Shown here piece by piece: positions 3,139 through 32,278 of a stretch of DNA of 32,995 nt. The stretch is taken from the IMG/VR virus record IMGVR_UViG_3300031521_000233, positions 1-32,995 of that record; one strand, given 5' to 3'. The position numbers and the translations under genes are program-made. Every line of letters begins with the position of its first letter. Positions within the stretch are counted from its first letter, which is position 1. The notes below the pieces were generated by a model. The model saw only the letters and a program-made list of their open reading frames with translations, ran no database searches and had not been told where the DNA came from. The stretch comes from a virus.

Positions 3139-3675
3139 CTACTCTAATATTTCTGTTGTATCTTTTTCTAATATACCTTGTTTAACTAATGTATCTATCA
3201 TATCATTTATTCTTTTCATAATTTTTTCTTCTTTTATTTGTTCTTTTGTTTTTTCTTCAACTAATTCTTCAATATATTTATTTGCTTTATTTCTTGATAG
3301 TCCTGATGTTTTTTGAAAGTAAGCATATAAGAAACCTAATCTTTTATCAAAATTATCTTCGTTTGTTCTTTTAACTATTGTCTTTTCTCCATTTTCCCAT
3401 ATCAATACTGTTGCGTCTTTCTTTATAATATATCTTTTAGGTAAAGTCAATTCTTTATTCATTTTAATTTCTTCTTTCTTATTTGTTTTATTTTCTACTA
3501 ATTTTAAATAACTTGCTGAATGTTGATAGTCATCTGTAAACCCATCTTTTAATCTTTTTAATATAAAACTACAATATTTAATTTCTATAACTTCACAAAT
3601 ATCTCCAATTTTAACTCCATTTATTCTAGTTGTATCGCTACCTATTCTTTCTACTATATCTCCTACTTTAAACAT
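3139..3675 (-). CDS. Two-part early phage protein: N-terminal SH3/KOW-like barrel plus conserved phage domain
   Basis: A 178-aa protein. Residues 1-60 (FKVGDIVERIG, VKIGDICEVIEI, SYLKLVE) look like a small beta-barrel of the KOW/SH3-like type. The same pattern opens the amidoligase at 8199. Residues 72-135 (RYIIKKDATVLIWENGEKT, then IVKRTNEDNFDKRLGFLYAYF) resemble a family I know as widespread in Firmicute phages, with no known function. The C-terminus is a charged helix. Start ATG 3675 has GGAG 9 nt upstream and overlaps the previous stop (TAATG). It could be a nucleic-acid or protein binding adaptor. Confidence 0.75.
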   Translation of the reverse strand: MFKVGDIVERIGSDTTRINGVKIGDICEVIEIKYCSFILKRLKDGFTDDYQHSASYLKLVENKTNKKEEIKMNKELTLPKRYIIKKDATVLIWENGEKTIVKRTNEDNFDKRLGFLYAYFQKTSGLSRNKANKYIEELVEEKTKEQIKEEKIMKRINDMIDTLVKQGILEKDTTEILE

Positions 3676-5128: not shown

Positions 5129-5138
5129 GTATTATTTT

Positions 5139-5231
5139 TAGAAAGGTTAGAAAGACTAGAAAGGTATATACTAGAAAGGTTAGAAAGGCAAATACTAGAA
5201 AGACTAGAAACCTTAGAAAGACCAGAAAGAT
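5139..5231. repeat. Array of nine 9-nt TAGAAAG-type repeats
   Basis: Units start at 5139, 5148, 5157, 5172, 5181, 5196, 5205, 5214 and 5223. The period is 9 nt, interrupted twice by 6-nt inserts (ATATAC, AAATAC). The unit is TAGAAAGGT or TAGAAAGAC, with TAGAAACCT and CAGAAAGAT variants. The array sits just upstream of the minus-strand promoter at 5101-5128. The plus-strand frame through it (Arg-Lys repeats) is a by-product of the repeats. Confidence 0.85.
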
Positions 5232-5578: not shown

Positions 5579-6445
5579 TCAACAATTTAAGCCTTGTAAA
5601 ATAAAACTTTTGTACTCTTTAAGTGTAAAATCGCAAGGTTGCATTGTATTATCTTGTAAAAAATTGATATAATCAATGTAATCTATATCATGATATATTT
5701 TTGTAAACTCTGTATAAGTAAAATCTTGTCTATGTAAATATAACATATCTAAAAATATGTTATATTCTTGATATATTAAACTAAAGTTCTTATCATAATC
5801 ATAAATATTTTTTTGTGCTTTTGTTGGGTAATATCTATCTTGATAATCGTCCCAATTGTAACTCGGGCTATCATTTTTATAACTCTTGTATGTTGTATTG
5901 CTATAAAATATCTTGTTATCTTCTGTAAAATCGCCTATCATTGACACGTTGCCCTTGCTATCTAAAAATAGCATTTTTGAATTTGTTGTCTCTTTTATTA
6001 TCTCTTGCCACTTATCTTTTAAATAAAAGCATTTATCTATCTTGTAAAACTTTTTCAAAAAATTATCAATATATATCTGCGTATCGCTATAAATTGTGCT
6101 TTTACAACTCTTTAAAGATATAATACCATTATGAACAACGCCTATATCTGTATTGATTATTAAATCGGTATTATAACTATTAAATAAGTCAAAGGGATGT
6201 GTTAGTTCTTTTGAGTTTTTTCCTTGTGTGCCTATTCTAAAGTGCATTACAAGGGGTTGCGTTCTTGGTATTTTTCTTAGGTCATTAAATAAATCTTCAA
6301 AAATCATATAACCTTTTTTTATTATTACTTTATTATCTTTTACATACATAAAGCCTGCACCATTACTATTATAATTAAAACAACGTTCTAGTATCTCCCT
6401 ACTTGGTAGGGGTTGCTTTTTAGGCTTGTATATTATTATACACAT
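5579..6445 (-). CDS. Class II glutamine amidotransferase (Ntn-hydrolase) partner of the amidoligase
   Basis: A 288-aa protein starting Met-Cys (MCIIIYKP). Cys2 would be the N-terminal nucleophile after Met removal, as in class II glutamine amidotransferases. Other hallmarks are NSNGAGF (26-32), MHFRIGTQG (67-75, with the Arg expected to bind glutamine), GVVHNG (102-107) and SDTQ (120-123). The C-terminal 120 residues are Tyr/Asp-rich and not recognised. The family hydrolyses glutamine and passes ammonia to a partner or transfers the gamma-glutamyl amide. The start lies 5 nt after the amidoligase stop, so the two are almost certainly co-expressed. Amidoligase plus GATase pairs are known from comparative genomics as predicted peptide-modifying systems. 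The fold is confident; the substrate is unknown. Confidence 0.8.
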   Translation of the reverse strand: MCIIIYKPKKQPLPSREILERCFNYNSNGAGFMYVKDNKVIIKKGYMIFEDLFNDLRKIPRTQPLVMHFRIGTQGKNSKELTHPFDLFNSYNTDLIINTDIGVVHNGIISLKSCKSTIYSDTQIYIDNFLKKFYKIDKCFYLKDKWQEIIKETTNSKMLFLDSKGNVSMIGDFTEDNKIFYSNTTYKSYKNDSPSYNWDDYQDRYYPTKAQKNIYDYDKNFSLIYQEYNIFLDMLYLHRQDFTYTEFTKIYHDIDYIDYINFLQDNTMQPCDFTLKEYKSFILQGLNC

Positions 6446-6450
6446 ATCTT

Positions 6451-8199
6451 TTATCTCTCACTTTCTATTTTTATTTTTTGCCAATAGTCTTTTATCTCTT
6501 TATAATCATTTATATTTATAATATCATTAAATGATATTTTTTCTATATCTTGATTATCTTTAGTTATACAATAAAGATTATAACATAATTCTAAACTTGC
6601 TAAATATGTATCAATGTTTAACGTGCCTTTAAATATTCTAACTTCTATCGTATTATCATTGTTTAAGTTTACAGCTCTATATCTTGAGCCGTCGTCTGTA
6701 TTTTTAATTGTGTCAACTATACTTTTTTTATCTACTGCTATATAGTTATTTGTTCTAAATTGACACCAATGTAAATCGCCGTGTCTACGCGAAAAAGTGT
6801 CTATCTCTTTTTTGTATTTTTCAATTAAAAACATAAAATCTTCTGTCTGTTCACAAGTAAATGCTTTTTTTGATAAATGAAAATGTAGTCCACAAGTTGA
6901 AGTATTATCGCTATCATAATCATTATCTAGTATATACTCAAACATTTTAGCAAAATGTTCTTTTTTCTCTAACATATAATTTATACTAAATGGGTGAGAC
7001 ACTATCTCAAGTCCATTATTTAAAGAGCCGTCGCTTTTGTTATAAAAAAACTTATCTTGGTTAAACTTGTTATGTAGGTTTATGCTAAATTGCTCTATAT
7101 CACTGCTATATCTACTGCCTTTATAGTCTACTTCTAACTCACTACCAAAGAATAAATCGTCTTTATCTGTACCAAAGAAAATTGGGCTAGGCTTAAAACT
7201 ATAACCGTTTATACCTTTAAAATCGCATCTGCAACACCTAGAACAAGCATGACAATTTAAACAATAATTTTCTGTATCTGTTTTTAAAGTCCACTTGCCA
7301 CATATTGAACATTGATTATATTTTAAATTTGCACACTCTTTACATATACAAATATAACTTTTTATATAGCATTTTTCTGTTGTCCAATGTAATTTATTAC
7401 AAATTGAACACTCAAACGTGTTAAATGCTATACAATTAGAACAATAATGCCCTAAGTCATTATCCACAAACTCACTTTTTAAATGATAGTTATTGCATTT
7501 ATTACATATTTCATATTTTTCATTTAAACAATCATTACACATTATATTAAAAGTTTCATTTATCATTATAGGTTTAAATATTGTTTTACAGTTTTTACAT
7601 TTATATAATAATTTAATATCGCCTTGACCTACTTTATAATTGATATAATTGTCTTTAAAATGCATTGAAAAATTACCATTATATTGCAAAAATATTTTTT
7701 TTTCTTTTTCTGTTTTTAAAGTTAAAGTTAAATCGCTTTTTTTCATAATTAAAACATTGCCTCTAAGATATAAAAAGTTTTTACCTTTATAAAAATAATT
7801 TTTATAATTATATGTATGTAAAAGTGTTAAAAAATCATTGATAGTATTAAATGTATTATAATTTGTTTTATAGTCCATTTGATATATAAAGTTTATATCT
7901 GTTTTTTTAGTTATATTATAACTTTGATAATTTCCCAAGTGTAATAACAATAAATTGTCTAAATCATTAAACATATCTAAAAAGTCTATCGTCTCATAGT
8001 TCAATATTTTTTTATCATTTTCATTTACTTTTGCAATTTTTGAAGGGATATTGCCTAGTTCTTGTCCTTCATTGTCTGTAATATAAACAAACTCATCATT
8101 AATACGAGTTATTATTGCAATATCGCCAATTTTAAAACTCCTGTTATTATTACTTATTCGCATTATTCTATCGCCTACTTGAAAATCTCTTATATCCAT
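6451..8199 (-). CDS. Amidoligase (COOH-NH2 ligase) with SH3-like N-terminus and Cys-rich zinc-ribbon region
   Basis: A 582-aa multidomain protein. Residues 5-55 form a KOW/SH3-like barrel (FQVGDRIMRIS, FKIGDIAIITRI). Residues 70-195 are unrecognised. Residues 201-325 carry about 22 cysteines, mostly as CxxC knuckles (CKNC, CNDC, CNKC, CSNC, CSIC, CKEC, CSIC, CLNC), which implies several zinc ribbons. Residues 350-540 match the amidoligase core: FGSELEVD (351-358), DGSLNNGLEIVSHP (390-403), CGLHFHLS (436-443) and RYRAVNLNNDNTIEVRIFKG (506-525), supplying the acidic and His residues for ATP/Mg binding in this glutamine-synthetase-like fold. Predicted to join an amine to a carboxyl group using ATP, with the downstream GATase. 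AGAGAG precedes the start. The zinc part probably binds the target protein or nucleic acid. Confidence 0.8.
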   Translation of the reverse strand: MDIRDFQVGDRIMRISNNNRSFKIGDIAIITRINDEFVYITDNEGQELGNIPSKIAKVNENDKKILNYETIDFLDMFNDLDNLLLLHLGNYQSYNITKKTDINFIYQMDYKTNYNTFNTINDFLTLLHTYNYKNYFYKGKNFLYLRGNVLIMKKSDLTLTLKTEKEKKIFLQYNGNFSMHFKDNYINYKVGQGDIKLLYKCKNCKTIFKPIMINETFNIMCNDCLNEKYEICNKCNNYHLKSEFVDNDLGHYCSNCIAFNTFECSICNKLHWTTEKCYIKSYICICKECANLKYNQCSICGKWTLKTDTENYCLNCHACSRCCRCDFKGINGYSFKPSPIFFGTDKDDLFFGSELEVDYKGSRYSSDIEQFSINLHNKFNQDKFFYNKSDGSLNNGLEIVSHPFSINYMLEKKEHFAKMFEYILDNDYDSDNTSTCGLHFHLSKKAFTCEQTEDFMFLIEKYKKEIDTFSRRHGDLHWCQFRTNNYIAVDKKSIVDTIKNTDDGSRYRAVNLNNDNTIEVRIFKGTLNIDTYLASLELCYNLYCITKDNQDIEKISFNDIININDYKEIKDYWQKIKIESER

Positions 8200-8250
8200 T
8201 TTTTTATTCTCTCTATTCTTATTTTATAGTGTTTAATCACTTTTATTTTT

Positions 8251-8433
8251 TTAATTGCATATGTTTATTATTTCACCATAAGTATTATATACTTTATCGC
8301 AAGTATTATTCCTTTTATCTAGTTTAATTATTGTTATAAGTATATAAGTTATTATTATTGTAAGTAATACTATTACAGTAAATGTTTTAATAGTTTTAAC
8401 GATAGTTTTTTTTAATCTTCTTCTACTTCTCAT
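8251..8433 (-). CDS. Small single-pass membrane protein, first gene of the amidoligase operon
   Basis: A 60-aa protein. It has a very basic N-terminus (MRSRRRLKKT), a hydrophobic helix at about residues 17-37 (FTVIVLLTIIITYILITII) and a short outside tail with two cysteines (NTCDKVYNTYGEIINIC). By the positive-inside rule the C-terminus faces outward. AGGTGGTG precedes ATG 8433 and the promoter at 8480-8507 lies just upstream; the amidoligase starts 51 nt after its stop. It could anchor a product at the membrane or be unrelated. Not recognised. Confidence 0.65.
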   Translation of the reverse strand: MRSRRRLKKTIVKTIKTFTVIVLLTIIITYILITIIKLDKRNNTCDKVYNTYGEIINICN

Positions 8434-8479: not shown

Positions 8480-8507
8480 ATTATAGCACATATAAACACA
8501 CTTGCAA
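8480..8507 (-). promoter_or_regulatory. Promoter of the membrane protein/amidoligase/GATase operon
   Basis: Read on the minus strand: -35 TTGCAA (8507-8502), 16-bp spacer, -10 TATAAT (8485-8480) with the extended TGC just before it. A perfect palindrome GTGTATACAC (8533-8542) lies about 26 bp upstream and could be an operator. Confidence 0.7.
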
Positions 8508-9257: not shown

Positions 9258-9403
9258 ATAGATGGTTACATTTAAACGCGTTTTTACACCTTTTAGTAAT
9301 TATTGATTATTTGTTATATATAAAGGGATACTAGGTTATTTTTGATAAAAAATGCTTACATACACTATATATATATTAAAAGACCCTATGTAATGAAAAA
9401 TCG

Positions 9404-9459: not shown

Positions 9460-9516
9460 GGTGCATTTGCTCGTTTAAATGTAAAAAGTAGGGTGCATTT
9501 GCTCGTTTAAATGTAA
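9460..9516 (+). repeat. 25-nt perfect direct repeat in the tRNA leader
   Basis: Copies at 9460-9484 and 9492-9516, both beginning GGTGCATTTGCTCG and ending GTTTAAATGTAA, 32 nt apart. Each can form a 6-bp hairpin (GCATTT/AAATGT with one G-U). Each contains CGTTTAAATGTAA, the reverse complement of the 13-mer at 9266-9278. Position between promoter and first tRNA suggests an operator or RNA control element. Confidence 0.85.
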
Positions 9517-9530
9517 TTGCACTTTTTAGA

Positions 9531-9604
9531 AGGAGAATAATTCAAAGGCAGAATAGTGGTCTCCAACACCATCTATGTAGGTTCAAGTCCTACTTCTCCT
9601 GCCA
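9531..9604 (+). tRNA. tRNA-Trp (anticodon CCA)
   Basis: Acceptor AGGAGAA/TTCTCCT, discriminator G and encoded CCA. Anticodon stem GTGGT/ACCAT with loop CTCCAAC. T arm GTAGG/CCTAC with loop TTCAAGT. The CCA anticodon reads UGG only, which argues against UGA-as-Trp coding. Confidence 0.92.
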
Positions 9605-9612
9605 TTTTTTTT

Positions 9613-9688
9613 AGGAGAGTAGTTGAATAGGTAAAACAACGCACTTTGAATGCGTAAGTTAGAGGTTCGAATCTTTTTTCTCCTACCA
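9613..9688 (+). tRNA. tRNA-Gln (anticodon TTG)
   Basis: Acceptor AGGAGAG/TTCTCCT, anticodon stem ACGCA/TGCGT with loop CTTTGAA, T loop TTCGAAT, encoded CCA. The T stem uses G-U pairs. Reads CAA, the Gln codon that prevails in this window. Confidence 0.9.
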
Positions 9689-9703
9689 GTATTTTTTTTA
9701 TTT

Positions 9704-9788
9704 GGTTGTGTGATGGAATTGGCATACATATCAGACTTAAACCCTGATGCCTTCGGGATTGAGAGTTCGACTCTCTCCACAACCACCA
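9704..9788 (+). tRNA. tRNA-Leu (anticodon TAA), normal class II
   Basis: Acceptor GGTTGTG/CACAACC, anticodon loop CTTAAAC, a long variable arm with the CC-TTCG-GG hairpin, T loop TTCGACT, encoded CCA. One A-C mismatch closes the anticodon stem. Its D arm is nearly identical to that of the Leu(TAG) gene at 10453. Confidence 0.9.
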
Positions 9789-9793
9789 TAATT

Positions 9794-9869
9794 GTCTTCG
9801 TAGCACAAAGGATAATGCAAAGGACTTCTAAACCTTCGATTATAGGTTCGATTCCTATCGAAGACACCA
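9794..9869 (+). tRNA. tRNA-Arg (anticodon TCT)
   Basis: Acceptor GTCTTCG/CGAAGAC, anticodon loop CTTCTAA, T arm ATAGG/CCTAT with loop TTCGATT, encoded CCA. The last pair of the anticodon stem is an A-A mismatch. Reads AGA, the main Arg codon of these genes. Confidence 0.9.
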
Positions 9870-9873
9870 ATAT

Positions 9874-9948
9874 GCTCTGTTCATCAAGTGGTTAAGATAT
9901 TGCACTTTCAATGCAAGTTCATCGGTTCAATTCCGATACAGAGTACCA
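9874..9948 (+). tRNA. tRNA-Glu (anticodon TTC)
   Basis: Acceptor GCTCTGT/ACAGAGT (first pair G-U), anticodon stem TTGCA/TGCAA with loop CTTTCAA, T arm ATCGG/CCGAT, encoded CCA. Confidence 0.92.
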
Positions 9949-9952
9949 ATAT

Positions 9953-10028
9953 GCTCATTTAACTCAGTGATAAGAGTGCTGTTCTTATAAAGCAGAAGTC
10001 GGTAGTTCAAATCTATCAATGAGTACCA
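9953..10028 (+). tRNA. tRNA-Ile (anticodon TAT)
   Basis: Acceptor GCTCATT/AATGAGT, D stem ACTC/GAGT, anticodon stem CTGTT/AGCAG with loop CTTATAA, T arm GGTAG/CTATC, encoded CCA. UAU reads AUA directly. Most bacteria instead use a CAU tRNA whose C34 is changed to lysidine, so this is a less common solution. Confidence 0.88.
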
Positions 10029-10032
10029 ATAT

Positions 10033-10107
10033 GTTGTAGTTAGTTCAATGGAAGAACGCAAGGCTGTGAACCTTGTCATAAGAGTTAAATTCTCTTACTA
10101 CACCCCA
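10033..10107 (+). tRNA. tRNA-His (anticodon GTG)
   Basis: Anticodon stem CAAGG/CCTTG with loop CTGTGAA. An extra 5' G (10033) faces discriminator C, the hallmark of tRNA-His. The first regular acceptor pair is a U-C mismatch; the other six pair. D stem GTTC/GAAC, encoded CCA. Confidence 0.88.
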
Positions 10108-10110
10108 AAT

Positions 10111-10199
10111 GTCAACATACTCAAGTGGTTTAAGAGAGTAGTTTACTAAACTATTAGCACTGAAAGGTGGCGTGGGTCCGAATCCTACTGTTGACGCCA
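10111..10199 (+). tRNA. tRNA-Ser (anticodon ACT, unusual A34)
   Basis: Acceptor GTCAACA/TGTTGAC, discriminator G, long variable arm and D stem CTC/GAG, as expected for tRNA-Ser. Anticodon stem GTAGT/ACTAT encloses loop TTACTAA, giving anticodon ACT for AGU codons. Bacterial AGY tRNAs normally have GCT; A34 here is rare. T arm GTGGG/CCTAC is sound and CCA is encoded. Confidence 0.85.
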
Positions 10200-10201
10200 A
10201 T

Positions 10202-10288
10202 GACAAATTGACCGAGAGGTTTAAGGTGATGGTCCTGAAAACCATTGTATGTAATGTACCATAGGTTCGAATCCTATATTTGTCGCCA
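10202..10288 (+). tRNA. tRNA-Ser (anticodon TGA)
   Basis: Acceptor GACAAAT/ATTTGTC, discriminator G, anticodon stem ATGGT/ACCAT with loop CCTGAAA, long variable arm, T arm ATAGG/CCTAT, encoded CCA. Confidence 0.9.
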
Positions 10289-10294
10289 AATTAT

Positions 10295-10369
10295 GATTGT
10301 ATAGTATAAAGGTTATTATGTCAGGTTGTCAGCCTGAAGATAAGGGTTCGATTCCCTTTATGGTCGCCA
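10295..10369 (+). tRNA. tRNA-Asp (anticodon GTC)
   Basis: Anticodon stem TCAGG/CCTGA with loop TTGTCAG, discriminator G, T arm AAGGG/CCCTT, encoded CCA. The acceptor GATTGTA/TATGGTC is rich in G-U pairs but complete. Confidence 0.88.
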
Positions 10370-10372
10370 TAT

Positions 10373-10449
10373 ATTCGCTTAGTTCAGATGATTAGAACGC
10401 TTGTCTAATACGCAAGAGGTCTCTGGTTCGACTCCAGAAGCGAGTACCA
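10373..10449 (+). tRNA. tRNA-Ile (anticodon AAT, unusual A34)
   Basis: Acceptor ATTCGCT/AGCGAGT, D stem GTTC/GAAC, anticodon stem CTTGT/GCAAG with loop CTAATAC, T arm TCTGG/CCAGA, encoded CCA. The anticodon AAT would read AUU; bacteria normally use GAT. All stems are well formed, so the anticodon assignment is secure even though its type is rare. Confidence 0.85.
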
Positions 10450-10452
10450 ATT

Positions 10453-10529
10453 GCCCTTATGGTGGAATTGGCATACATATTTATCTTAGAAGCAAAGTTT
10501 TGCAGGTTAAAGTCCTGCTAGGGGTACCA
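10453..10529 (+). tRNA. tRNA-Leu (anticodon TAG) lacking the long variable arm
   Basis: Acceptor GCCCTTA/TAGGGGT, discriminator A, encoded CCA. The D arm (GGAATTGGCATACATAT) is nearly the same as in Leu(TAA) at 9704. The anticodon loop CTTAGAA gives TAG. Only about 5 nt separate the anticodon and T stems, where bacterial tRNA-Leu has a long arm. The anticodon stem is weak (one A-C and one G-U pair). It may be a shortened functional tRNA or a decaying one. Confidence 0.75.
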
Positions 10530-10532
10530 TAT

Positions 10533-10607
10533 GTCTCTATAATGCAATGGAAAGCATATAGTTCTACGAAAACTAAAATCTGGGTTCAAATCCTAGTAGA
10601 GATACCA
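10533..10607 (+). tRNA. tRNA-Arg (anticodon ACG)
   Basis: Acceptor GTCTCTA/TAGAGAT, anticodon stem TAGTT/AACTA with loop CTACGAA, T loop TTCAAAT, encoded CCA. ACG is the standard bacterial A34 tRNA, normally edited to inosine by TadA. Last gene of the array, 29 nt before the next CDS. Confidence 0.9.
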
Positions 10608-27943: not shown

Positions 27944-30900
27944 ATGGCAGCAGCAATTACATATAATGTTACTCCTACAAACGCAGGTTATGTCTATCGC
28001 ACAACAGGTGGTGGTGTAACATTTTCAGCTAACCTTACCGCTACCGCTGTGTTTGATTATTTCTCTGATACCGCAGTAGTCAACGATGCTCTTTATATAG
28101 CTAAAGGCGGTGGACAAACTTCTGGTATATTCTCTGACGTTAATTTTAATGTAGGAACTGCACTTACTGGAACTGGTATTATGGGTGTTTGGGAATATTA
28201 CAATGCCAATACCTCTACATGGGTAGCAGTAACTAATATAGTAGATAATACTGTAGGTTTTACTGCTACTGGTGCAAAAGTAGTTCAATTTCCATATCAA
28301 ACAGATTGGGGTGCTGTTATCGTAAATGGTGTAGCCGCAACAGGTTGGGTAAGGTATCGTCTAACTGCTATTACAACAATTACAGAAGGTGGTGCTAACA
28401 GGACAACTGCTTGTCAGGTAAATGATGGAAAATTATCTTGTACAGGGTACACAATAGGTTCACCTTGTACTTTTACTGCTCTATATAACTACATGAATAC
28501 TAATTATTCTTATGTAGGTTGTAAAAAAGTAAGTCAATACTTTGACTTCAGGTGGGTTTCATTACAGTTATTAAGTTATCTTTTTACTACTCACGAAGTT
28601 ATAGAATCAGGTATAAATACAGCACAGGTCAACACATTAAATGTTAATGCTAACTTTAGTTATTTACAAAGTGGATATAAGGTAGGTAGTTATAATGGTA
28701 GAGACGGTTCAACATTTATTATCAATGCTATACCTAACTCAGCACCCTATGTTTTTGGTGCCAATACTAAATGTTATGGTTCTAACTTCTTATCGTTTAG
28801 TGCTTCTGCTGGTTACCCTGGATTGGTTGGTGAATTTATGGATTGTAGATTTGAATGTGCACCAGGTGGACTTTCTGCATCAAGTTCATTCTATAACAAT
28901 AAGTGGGTATTTGGTTCATTAGGCTTTATTGCTTCCGTTTGGGATGCTTCTTCAACTTTCGTAAATCAAAGTATTATCGTTAGGGGAACTTATGCTATAT
29001 CAGGCTATCAAACCAGCTGGTCTATTAGAGGATTTGATGTTAGTTTTACAAGTCCTTCTATCCAAGGTATTATAGGATTACAACAGACTCAGGTTAATTC
29101 TACTTTTGATTTTGTAAACCCTATAAATCCATTTCCACGAATTAATGATGCAACAGGCGCAAGACCTATTATTAGAACTATAGGTACAGAAGCAAGTTGT
29201 CCGAATGTATTTTTCTATGATGATAGTGCTGCAACTTATGTTGACTATACTACTCAGGCTGCCAGTGCTACTACTGCAGATGTACCTATTTGGGGTGATG
29301 TAAATGATTGTTTATACTACAACCCATGTGCTGCCGCAACCGATTTAAGGTGGGGTAGTGTTACTTCTACTATAGGTGGAACTAATGATTATGTCTATGC
29401 TCACGAATATTATTACGGCGGTGCTTGGGTTCCGTTTACAAAGATGTGGGATGAAACTACCAACCTCGTTAAGTCGGGTATGCTATGGGGTCAAAGACCA
29501 ATGTCTGCACTTACTTCTATTACTATAAATGGAGTAGCTGGATTTTGGTATAGAATAAGAATAGTTACCAAAGGCACAGGTTATCCAATGATAGACAAAC
29601 TCCGCTATAAGAGTTCTATGGGGTGTTCTGATTGGGAAATGTGGGAAAGATATGAAATTAATTATAATGCAAAAAATAGTGCTGGTGCTAATCTTGCTGG
29701 AGTTGAAGTTAGAGCAACAGATGTAGATGGAGCAGTTGCCTATACTGGTACGACTGATGCTAATGGGTTAATTACTGCAACTCCAGTAAAGGGTATGAAA
29801 TGGTACTTTGACCCACTATCTGCAAGTGGAACTGATACAGTAAATAAAACAGGACAAAAAGATTATAATCCATATTCAATGACTTCAAGAAAGTATGGTT
29901 ATCTACCACAGACTATCGCTTTAACAATGACTTCTGTTCAGAACGTAAAACCAGTATTTCAGACTAATACAAATGTAGTAGCAAGTCAATCAACTGCACA
30001 CGCATATACTGGAATAGCAATAGATGGTGTAGCTAAAACAATAACAGTATCAGGAACAAGACTAATAACAGAACTATATGACTATTCACAAGACTGGTAC
30101 TCATTAACAGCAAATATGGCATACGATGAGCCAATTACAACGACTGATGGTATAACATATACTTTAACAAGTGGTTGGTCTATCATTGTTACAGGTCAAT
30201 TAACAAGTAATACAAGAAAAATAAGTGGTACGGTTACTGTAAGTGGTAATGGTTACTTTGAAACTCTATCAGGAGCAGTATGGGCTTCAAGTGGTCATAT
30301 ATACTATGGAAACAAAGTAACACATAATGTTAAAAATGGTACTTCAAATATACAAAATGTAAATATAGCATACTATTGCTCAATGGGGACAAATAGAACA
30401 TACAACTCATCAAGAGTAGCAGTAGATTGTTTAACAACTGATGTAAGTGGTAATGCTACTGGATATTCAGTATGGAAAGTAGATAGTACTGCTTGTAGTT
30501 CACAAAATCTAATAATTAAGGCATATGGTTATACAAAATCAACATTACCTAAAACATTGGATGGAACTGCATATAGTGAGACTGATTATATAGTAGCAAA
30601 TCCTTATGTAGTAGCAAATTATGCAACAGCAAGTGCTTATACAGGAATAACGGTAGTAGCAAACACATTATTAACAATGACAACTTCACATACAATACAA
30701 GAATTATTTGACTATTGTGATTATTGGAATACTTTAGGAACTAATCTAAATTACTCAACACTAATAACTTCAACTGACGGAATAATATTTAATTTACTAG
30801 GTGGTTTAACTACTACTATTACAGGACAATTAACAAGTGATACATTAAAATTAACTGGTAATATTGTAGTTTCAAGTGGTGGTTATTTTGAAACAGTTCT

Positions 30901-32278
30901 AGGTGCAATGTGGGAAAGTTTAGGTAATGTATACTATGGTAATAAAGTTATTCATAATATAAAGTCAGGAGTTTCTAATATAGCAAGTACAAATATATCT
31001 TACTATGATGAAAATAGTATAAATAGAACTTATAATAGTTCACGAATATCAACAAATGCTTTAACAAGTGATATAAATGGTAATATAATAGGTTATGCAG
31101 TATGGAAAATAAATAGTACATTGCATGATATACAAAACTTAATAATTAAAGCATATGGTTATAATAAAGTAATTATACCTAAAGTTTTAAATGGTGCAGT
31201 AATAAATGAAATAAACTATATTGTTTCAGACCTTTATAAAGTTGCTAATTATAATACTGCTGGGGCATACACAGGAATAGCAATTATAGGTAATAATAGT
31301 ATAGTAATGAGTAATAATCATACTATGCAAGAACTATATGACTATTCTCAATGGTGGGCAACACAAACAACTAACTTAAATTATGAAACTCCAATTACAA
31401 CTAATGATGGTACTAACTATGTATCAACTTATGATTTTACAATAGACAATGCCGAATTAAGTGGTAATGGTAGTGAAAACTTGGGTACACACTCATTAGA
31501 ATTGATAGGAACAGCTAAAAGTTCAATAAATATAACATATATAGACGGAACTCAAACTAATATAATTCTAACTGGAATAACAAATAATTCAAGAGTTCAG
31601 TTATATGATATTAGTAGTTCAACTGAATTATACAATGATATTACTGGCACAACATTAACATTTCCTTACTTATGGACTACTAATAAGCAAATAAGAATAA
31701 GAGTTATGTATGTTAATGGTGCAAATGCTAAAAAATGGTATGAAACAACTGCGACAGTTACTTCAAGTGGTATAAACTTAAATGTTATACAAGAAGATGA
31801 CACAGTATATAATAAAAATCTAGTATATGGTTCAACAGTTACAGAATGTTCAATAGAGGGAACTACATTAGTAGTAAATGTAGACGACCCCGATAATAAA
31901 ACAACAGCACAAAGAATATATGCTTATGAAGTATATTGGTTATTTACTGAAGGTGGTATTAGAGACCAGAATTTATATATAGATGCAACTGACCAAACAC
32001 ATTATATTTTAGAAGGTGGATTGAAGATTAAAAATCTTGATATGTCCAATCCTTTAAATATAACTGGTGCTAATTTAGAACCTATTACTGGTAGTGCAAC
32101 TGATATACTAGATACTACTGGTGGTATGATACTAATAAATCCTGAAACGGTAGTGCCATTCGCTTATAATGTAAATGGGGCAACAGAAGCACAATTCAAT
32201 GAATTAATAAGTAAAACAAGTATATTAGATAGAAAAGTTGATGATACTCAAACAAGAGTAATAACATTAACGGAATAG
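27944..32278 (+). CDS. Giant tail spike/adhesin, 1444 aa, with beta-helix-like and tandem repeat domains
   Basis: Residues 20-165 and 435-560 look like copies of one beta-sandwich (shared pattern W-EYYN-STWV, NGVAATGWVRYRL versus NGVAGFWYRIRI). Residues 165-430 have short turns of a right-handed beta-helix. Residues 565-650 are a regulatory-like Ig domain (AGANLAGVEVRATDVDG). From about 683 there are two full repeats of about 211 aa (683-894 and 895-1105) and a partial third (1106-1165), each opening AYTGI and containing LYDYSQ-type and YGNKV motifs. Residues after 1165 form further beta domains. The first 1.7 kb is visibly richer in G and C than the rest. GGTGGTGATT precedes ATG 27944. It probably binds or cuts host surface glycan. 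Confidence 0.8.
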   Translation: MAAAITYNVTPTNAGYVYRTTGGGVTFSANLTATAVFDYFSDTAVVNDALYIAKGGGQTSGIFSDVNFNVGTALTGTGIMGVWEYYNANTSTWVAVTNIVDNTVGFTATGAKVVQFPYQTDWGAVIVNGVAATGWVRYRLTAITTITEGGANRTTACQVNDGKLSCTGYTIGSPCTFTALYNYMNTNYSYVGCKKVSQYFDFRWVSLQLLSYLFTTHEVIESGINTAQVNTLNVNANFSYLQSGYKVGSYNGRDGSTFIINAIPNSAPYVFGANTKCYGSNFLSFSASAGYPGLVGEFMDCRFECAPGGLSASSSFYNNKWVFGSLGFIASVWDASSTFVNQSIIVRGTYAISGYQTSWSIRGFDVSFTSPSIQGIIGLQQTQVNSTFDFVNPINPFPRINDATGARPIIRTIGTEASCPNVFFYDDSAATYVDYTTQAASATTADVPIWGDVNDCLYYNPCAAATDLRWGSVTSTIGGTNDYVYAHEYYYGGAWVPFTKMWDETTNLVKSGMLWGQRPMSALTSITINGVAGFWYRIRIVTKGTGYPMIDKLRYKSSMGCSDWEMWERYEINYNAKNSAGANLAGVEVRATDVDGAVAYTGTTDANGLITATPVKGMKWYFDPLSASGTDTVNKTGQKDYNPYSMTSRKYGYLPQTIALTMTSVQNVKPVFQTNTNVVASQSTAHAYTGIAIDGVAKTITVSGTRLITELYDYSQDWYSLTANMAYDEPITTTDGITYTLTSGWSIIVTGQLTSNTRKISGTVTVSGNGYFETLSGAVWASSGHIYYGNKVTHNVKNGTSNIQNVNIAYYCSMGTNRTYNSSRVAVDCLTTDVSGNATGYSVWKVDSTACSSQNLIIKAYGYTKSTLPKTLDGTAYSETDYIVANPYVVANYATASAYTGITVVANTLLTMTTSHTIQELFDYCDYWNTLGTNLNYSTLITSTDGIIFNLLGGLTTTITGQLTSDTLKLTGNIVVSSGGYFETVLGAMWESLGNVYYGNKVIHNIKSGVSNIASTNISYYDENSINRTYNSSRISTNALTSDINGNIIGYAVWKINSTLHDIQNLIIKAYGYNKVIIPKVLNGAVINEINYIVSDLYKVANYNTAGAYTGIAIIGNNSIVMSNNHTMQELYDYSQWWATQTTNLNYETPITTNDGTNYVSTYDFTIDNAELSGNGSENLGTHSLELIGTAKSSINITYIDGTQTNIILTGITNNSRVQLYDISSSTELYNDITGTTLTFPYLWTTNKQIRIRVMYVNGANAKKWYETTATVTSSGINLNVIQEDDTVYNKNLVYGSTVTECSIEGTTLVVNVDDPDNKTTAQRIYAYEVYWLFTEGGIRDQNLYIDATDQTHYILEGGLKIKNLDMSNPLNITGANLEPITGSATDILDTTGGMILINPETVVPFAYNVNGATEAQFNELISKTSILDRKVDDTQTRVITLTE

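Follow-up and report, generated by a model that had tools for sequence, protein, structure and literature searches.

Phages phiEco32 (phi32_84/phi32_83) and LUZ24 (gp18/gp19) encode an Amidoligase_2-type ligase that adjoins a class II glutamine amidotransferase (GATase), in a cluster that additionally comprises a COOH-NH2 ligase, a RimK-type ATP-grasp ligase, and a gamma-glutamyl cyclotransferase (GGCT). Similarly, a zinc-ribbon amidoligase is followed by a GATase in Mycobacterium phage Marvin (gp105/gp106), and an amidoligase is directly followed by a GATase in Methylophilales phages MEP401 and MEP402, in which both were classed as auxiliary metabolic genes (PMC10580990). Earlier mentions of the pair concern OM43 phages (PMC10580990), LUZ24-like phages, phage tf, and Marvin; clostridial prophages and Tn6164 were described to carry an amidoligase together with GGCT. 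Proteome analysis of the phiEco32-like phage SU10 detected a GATase, an "ATP-graze" enzyme (read here as ATP-grasp), and a YtfP protein, which were listed as early gene products. A two-subunit, glutamine-dependent design is also found in peptidoglycan amidation by MurT/GatD (PMC3267633, PMC6113224), which serves as an analogy only. MurT/GatD involves a Mur-ligase-type synthase, whereas the proteins studied here belong to other families, namely a glutamine-synthetase (GS)-like fold and a class II GATase. GatD is a class I-type GATase. No enzyme biochemistry for any Amidoligase_2 member was found in the open literature searched.

The stretch of DNA analyzed here (hereafter the window), a viral record of IMG/VR with a length of 32,995 bases, may be a fragment; its genes include those for terminase, portal, major head, and tape-measure proteins. 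An earlier note, prepared from the sequence, had described an operon of a one-TM protein, a 582-aa amidoligase, and a GATase. Its coordinates proved exact, and the three ORFs lie on the minus strand and encode proteins of 60, 582, and 288 amino acids (Table 1). Intergenic gaps are 51 bp between the genes for the transmembrane (TM) peptide and the amidoligase, and 5 bp between those for the amidoligase and the GATase. The assignment of the 60-aa ORF as a one-TM protein was upheld by a single strong hydrophobic stretch, with a 19-residue Kyte-Doolittle mean that peaks at 2.87.

Table 1. Features of the minus-strand gene set in the window.
Feature	Position	Strand	Remarks
Candidate extended -10 promoter	8480-8507	minus	10/12 matches; TTGCAA-16-TATAAT, TG in front
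Single-TM basic peptide, 60 aa	8251-8433	minus	first ORF of putative operon
Amidoligase, Amidoligase_2 (PF12224), zinc-ribbon, 582 aa	6451-8199	minus	
SH3-like segment, low confidence	8020-8199	minus	residues 1-60
Zinc-ribbon module	7225-7599	minus	residues 201-325; 22 Cys; LIM-like
GS-like amidoligase domain	6466-7212	minus	residues ~330-578
Class II glutamine amidotransferase (GATase), 288 aa	5579-6445	minus	N-terminal Cys once Met removed

The earlier note had placed the three genes under one promoter. The best minus-strand promoter match (8507-8480) indeed sits just upstream of the TM ORF. However, the 46 promoter-like matches found in this AT-rich region were not clearly above chance (mean of shuffled sequences 39.4, sd 5.9), so that a single promoter for the three-gene set is plausible. 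A cluster of imperfect TAGAAAGnn repeats with a phase of approximately 9 bp (5130-5229), located in the interval that separates the GATase gene from the next set of genes on the minus strand, possibly constitutes a protein-binding array. Elsewhere in the window, a glycosyltransferase gene (PF00534) occupies the left end of the record (37-945), and a 1444-aa ORF beyond the tail genes (27944-32278), for which no PHROG match was found, may encode a receptor-binding or structural protein. An array of 13 tRNA genes (9531-10607) is directly preceded by two identical 25-bp direct repeats, 32 bp apart (9460-9516), of which an inverted partial copy occurs at 9266-9278. The array includes tRNA-Ile genes with anticodons TAT and AAT, both of which are unusual in bacteria. 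ATA was the commonest Ile codon (397 of 603) in 13 large ORFs of the window.

Profile comparisons with a set of eight proteins showed homology of the window proteins to those of phiEco32 and LUZ24, both for the amidoligase (E = 1.3e-13 and 1.2e-7) and for the GATase (E = 6.4e-14 and 3.2e-14). In contrast to the window, amidoligases of these two phages lack zinc ribbons, and their GATases are larger. No match to GGCT was found among the ORFs of the window, which may be a fragment, and a RimK-type ATP-grasp ligase and a PF14395 COOH-NH2 ligase were absent from the subset of left-arm proteins that was scanned. The Marvin amidoligase, which shares approximately 25% identity with its window counterpart, differs from it by fewer CxxC motifs, absence of the N-terminal extension, and a long C-terminal extension. 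That of MEP402 is divergent and has only two CxxC motifs. Clostridial mobile elements from Ruminococcus and relatives resemble the window in encoding amidoligases with mostly 6-11 CxxC motifs and a downstream GATase. Their amidoligases are mostly shorter, without the 200-aa N-terminal extension, and have DUF960, DUF3846, relaxase, and resolvase genes as neighbors.

Identification of the 582-aa protein as an amidoligase was based on several lines of evidence. It matched PF12224 with 30.1 bits (cut-off 22) over residues 384-540 and phrog_16683 with an E value of 1.4e-44. The FGSELEVD, GLEIVSHP, and CGLHFHLS motifs recognized previously were all present and contain family-invariant residues. In an alignment of 60 nonredundant relatives, E354, E356, D390, S392, E398, G437, H439, N511, E519, and R521 were invariant, and the loss of catalytic acidic or His residues that would have spoken against an amidoligase was thus not observed. 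An AlphaFold2 model, based on an alignment of the window protein with IMG/VR rows only (as was the GATase model), reached pLDDT values of mostly 80-98 for residues ~330-580, while residues 1-194 were poorly modeled. Leading fold matches in the PDB (E values from 1e-4; modest TM-scores of 0.23-0.39, normalized by target) were YbdK, glutamine synthetase, gamma-glutamylmethylamide synthetase (GmaS), and Dop/PafA, all of them carboxylate-amine ligases of the glutamine-synthetase superfamily. The model therefore bore out the GS-like fold that the earlier note had expected at residues 350-540, and profile, motif, and fold evidence together identify the protein as a genuine Amidoligase_2 member. As single sequences, neither the amidoligase nor the GATase yielded a match in a phmmer search of PDB sequences, and an NCBIfam search returned nothing above a cut-off. 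Pupylation was rejected as a candidate function: Dop/PafA ranked below YbdK and glutamine synthetase among the fold matches. Membership of a known defense system was likewise unsupported, with no match at all in PADLOC and none above cut-off in NCBIfam.

The GATase gene directly follows the amidoligase gene, as the earlier note had observed, and its product starts with Met-Cys and contains HFRIGTQG, THPF, VVHNG, and SDT motifs. Residues C2, R70, H83, N106, G107, and D121 were invariant among 38 relatives. The corresponding GlmS residues presumably bind glutamine. The GATase family profile matched PurF/GlmS (E ~2e-8), most of the active-site stretch aligned with GlmS/PurF, and residues 1-190 of the structural model, comprising the Ntn domain, matched GFAT/GlmS with pLDDT values mostly above 95. 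The C-terminal third was modeled at low confidence, and the window GATase lacks the C-terminal ribbon found in many relatives. By itself it gave no match above threshold to Pfam GATase_4 or GATase_6; GATase_4 was matched by 36 of 44 aligned family members. Family profile and model thus indicate that the 288-aa protein is a class II GATase with a predicted GlmS/PurF-like fold and active site. Judged from their intact active-site residues, amidoligase and GATase both look active.

A search of IMG/VR with a single sequence retrieved no relative, and relatives were therefore sought by alignment-based scans. A scan with the family alignment yielded at least 575 candidate relatives, from which the best 80 viral loci were selected by amidoligase alone. 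Downstream of the amidoligase, a same-strand GATase was found in 79 of these 80 loci, locus L074 being the exception. Under the strict requirement that no more than 450 bp separate the two genes, pairing held for 77 of 83 viral amidoligase ORFs. A scan of genomes gave 447 relatives, and in the best 80 loci, likewise selected by amidoligase alone, mainly from Clostridia and many from Ruminococcus, 80 of 84 amidoligase ORFs had a same-strand GATase within 1.5 kb downstream. These best loci are the nearest to the query, and the pairing fraction across the whole family may differ. The GATase gene usually directly adjoined the amidoligase gene, and most relatives among the best viral and genome loci carried 6-14 CxxC motifs in the amidoligase. 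In view of the high pairing and these usual CxxC numbers, the combination of zinc ribbons, amidoligase, and downstream GATase is the rule in phages and clostridial mobile elements. What had been proposed to be an unusual domain fusion is therefore the usual architecture of the subfamily.

Near the genome loci, DUF960, DUF3846, resolvase, relaxase, NikA-like, and integrase genes were found, and 59 of the 80 loci had a mobility gene in their flanks. In a phylogenetic tree, a weakly supported branching placed the window protein close to viral loci L029 and L049 and to two clostridial loci. Divergence of amidoligases was correlated with that of their GATases (rank correlation 0.32; none of 2000 permutations as high), which fits partnership, although shared descent of the elements yields the same signal. 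The pair is a common and long-noticed module of phages and mobile elements rather than a one-off. When the operon content of relatives was compared, the amidoligase/GATase pair in the three-gene operon of the earlier note was found to be conserved, but the TM peptide was not. Of 120 upstream neighbors (with the window counted twice), only 16 were short ORFs with a hydrophobic stretch, and these formed no family with the TM peptide, which was therefore rejected as a third conserved component and lies outside the conserved module. No conserved third gene common to the window operon and its viral relatives was found.

The 22 cysteines reported for the insert were confirmed in residues 201-325, out of 27 in the entire amidoligase, and 11 overlapping CxxC motifs were counted where "eight or more" had been noted. 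The ribbons resemble LIM and double-zinc-ribbon domains. In one viral clade, which retained the amino-terminal region and is sister to loci with 10 CxxC motifs, most ribbon Cys columns were replaced by Asp, Glu, Ser, Tyr, or gaps, while the catalytic residues were kept and the catalytic sites of both amidoligase and GATase were intact. This clade comprises loci L026, L030, L056-L061, and L066-L069, among others, and most of its partner GATases bear a CxxC ribbon at the C-terminus. Because ribbon cysteines were lost and catalytic residues retained, zinc in the ribbons is predicted to be non-catalytic, and the ribbons can be inferred to act as a docking scaffold. Among 20 viral amidoligases that are paired with a GATase but have no ribbons, 19 had a partner GATase with CxxC motifs at its C-terminus; these 19 cases mostly belong to one clade and thus represent approximately a single evolutionary event.

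Relative to most of its relatives, the window amidoligase has an N-terminal extension of approximately 195 residues. This lineage-specific extension is what is new in the window copy, which otherwise adds little. A weak match to phrog_13152 (E = 0.025) and a low-confidence, beta-rich model make an SH3-like fold at the start of the protein, as asserted in the earlier note, possible. A 178-aa protein encoded elsewhere in the window (3139-3675) begins in a similar way to the amidoligase (FxVGDxxxRI...KIGDI) and is also a weak match to phrog_13152, which suggests that an SH3-like module may be common to both proteins.

Modeled folds, intact active sites, near-obligate pairing, and spread on phages and mobile elements together formed the basis for the best explanation. 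With a probability just above one half (approximately 0.52), amidoligase and GATase constitute one glutamine-dependent, ATP-driven carboxylate-amidation system, with the ribbons as docking scaffold. In such a system, the class II GATase would split glutamine and hand ammonia to the GS-like amidoligase, which would use ATP to activate a carboxylate and convert it to an amide. The LIM-like ribbons would have a non-catalytic role in docking the target or the partner enzyme. The most likely targets would be proteins or peptides of the host cytoplasm, or envelope precursors there that bear a peptide, and the gain might lie in host takeover or exclusion of rival elements. A GATase combined with a GS-like ligase is most simply explained by glutamine-dependent amidation, and the ATP-driven amide modification envisaged by the earlier note stands to this extent as the natural reading of two genuine enzymes, one identified by PF12224 and fold and the other of the GlmS/PurF type. 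A more elaborate scheme, in which variable numbers of LIM-like modules would select cytoplasmic proteins of the host or of rivals, to be disarmed or rewired by a glutamine-derived amide in a protein-amidation system of mobile elements, is rather unlikely.

Plain amidation is challenged by the few relatives that pair with, or are fused to, GGCT, which point to gamma-glutamyl chemistry instead. The sub-threshold Pfam scores of the window GATase taken alone also count against it. In the alternative chemistry, the amidoligase might join glutamate, another amino acid, or an amine to the target, as gamma-glutamylation or peptide tagging, and the GATase-fold partner might trim or recycle gamma-glutamyl amides in a GGCT-like manner. 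GATase-GGCT fusions occurred in L089 (5001-5897) and L091 (5001-6218), GGCT adjoined clusters of two amidoligases and one GATase in L010 and L032, and Bacillus phage 035JT001 has an amidoligase and GGCT without a GATase. Both the phiEco32/LUZ24 cluster of COOH-NH2 ligase, amidoligase, GATase, RimK, and GGCT, and the presence of YbdK and gamma-glutamylmethylamide synthetase among the nearest folds, are in line with this chemistry. Although these fusions and clusters keep it viable, it was considered doubtful: nearly always, a GATase of the glutaminase type was encoded whose glutamine-site residues were intact, while GGCT was found in only 2 of 80 viral zinc-ribbon loci and in no such genome locus. 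On the same counts, GGCT was rejected as a regular third component of the zinc-ribbon subfamily.

According to PMC10580990 and PMC11318856, Iyer et al. (2009) proposed that the phiEco32 pair amidates peptidoglycan precursors or another envelope component and thereby blocks superinfection. The glutamine-dependent precedent of MurT/GatD (PMC3267633, PMC6113224), a TM peptide in the same putative operon, and an occurrence on phages and mobile elements that fits exclusion of rivals all agree with this proposal. It is improbable for the window pair; against it stand a TM peptide that is not conserved with the pair, hosts with differing walls (Clostridia, Actinomycetota, Proteobacteria), and LIM-like ribbons that are better suited to binding of cytoplasmic proteins. 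Synthesis of a small molecule, for which linked peptide ligases in secondary-metabolite pathways provide a parallel (PMC4431377), or modification of a nucleotide or DNA base, to which nucleic-acid binding by zinc ribbons could contribute, appears very unlikely. Viral relatives share no conserved third gene, and no dedicated modification gene was recognized near the window operon among the proteins scanned.

The claimed oddity of the domain fusion is refuted. Versions of the pair had already been described in phiEco32 and Marvin and in LUZ24-like and OM43 phages. What lasts from this analysis is the conserved architecture, together with the clade that lost the ribbon cysteines. Identification of the substrate would explain a common phage accessory module and could reveal a new modification of proteins or of the cell envelope.
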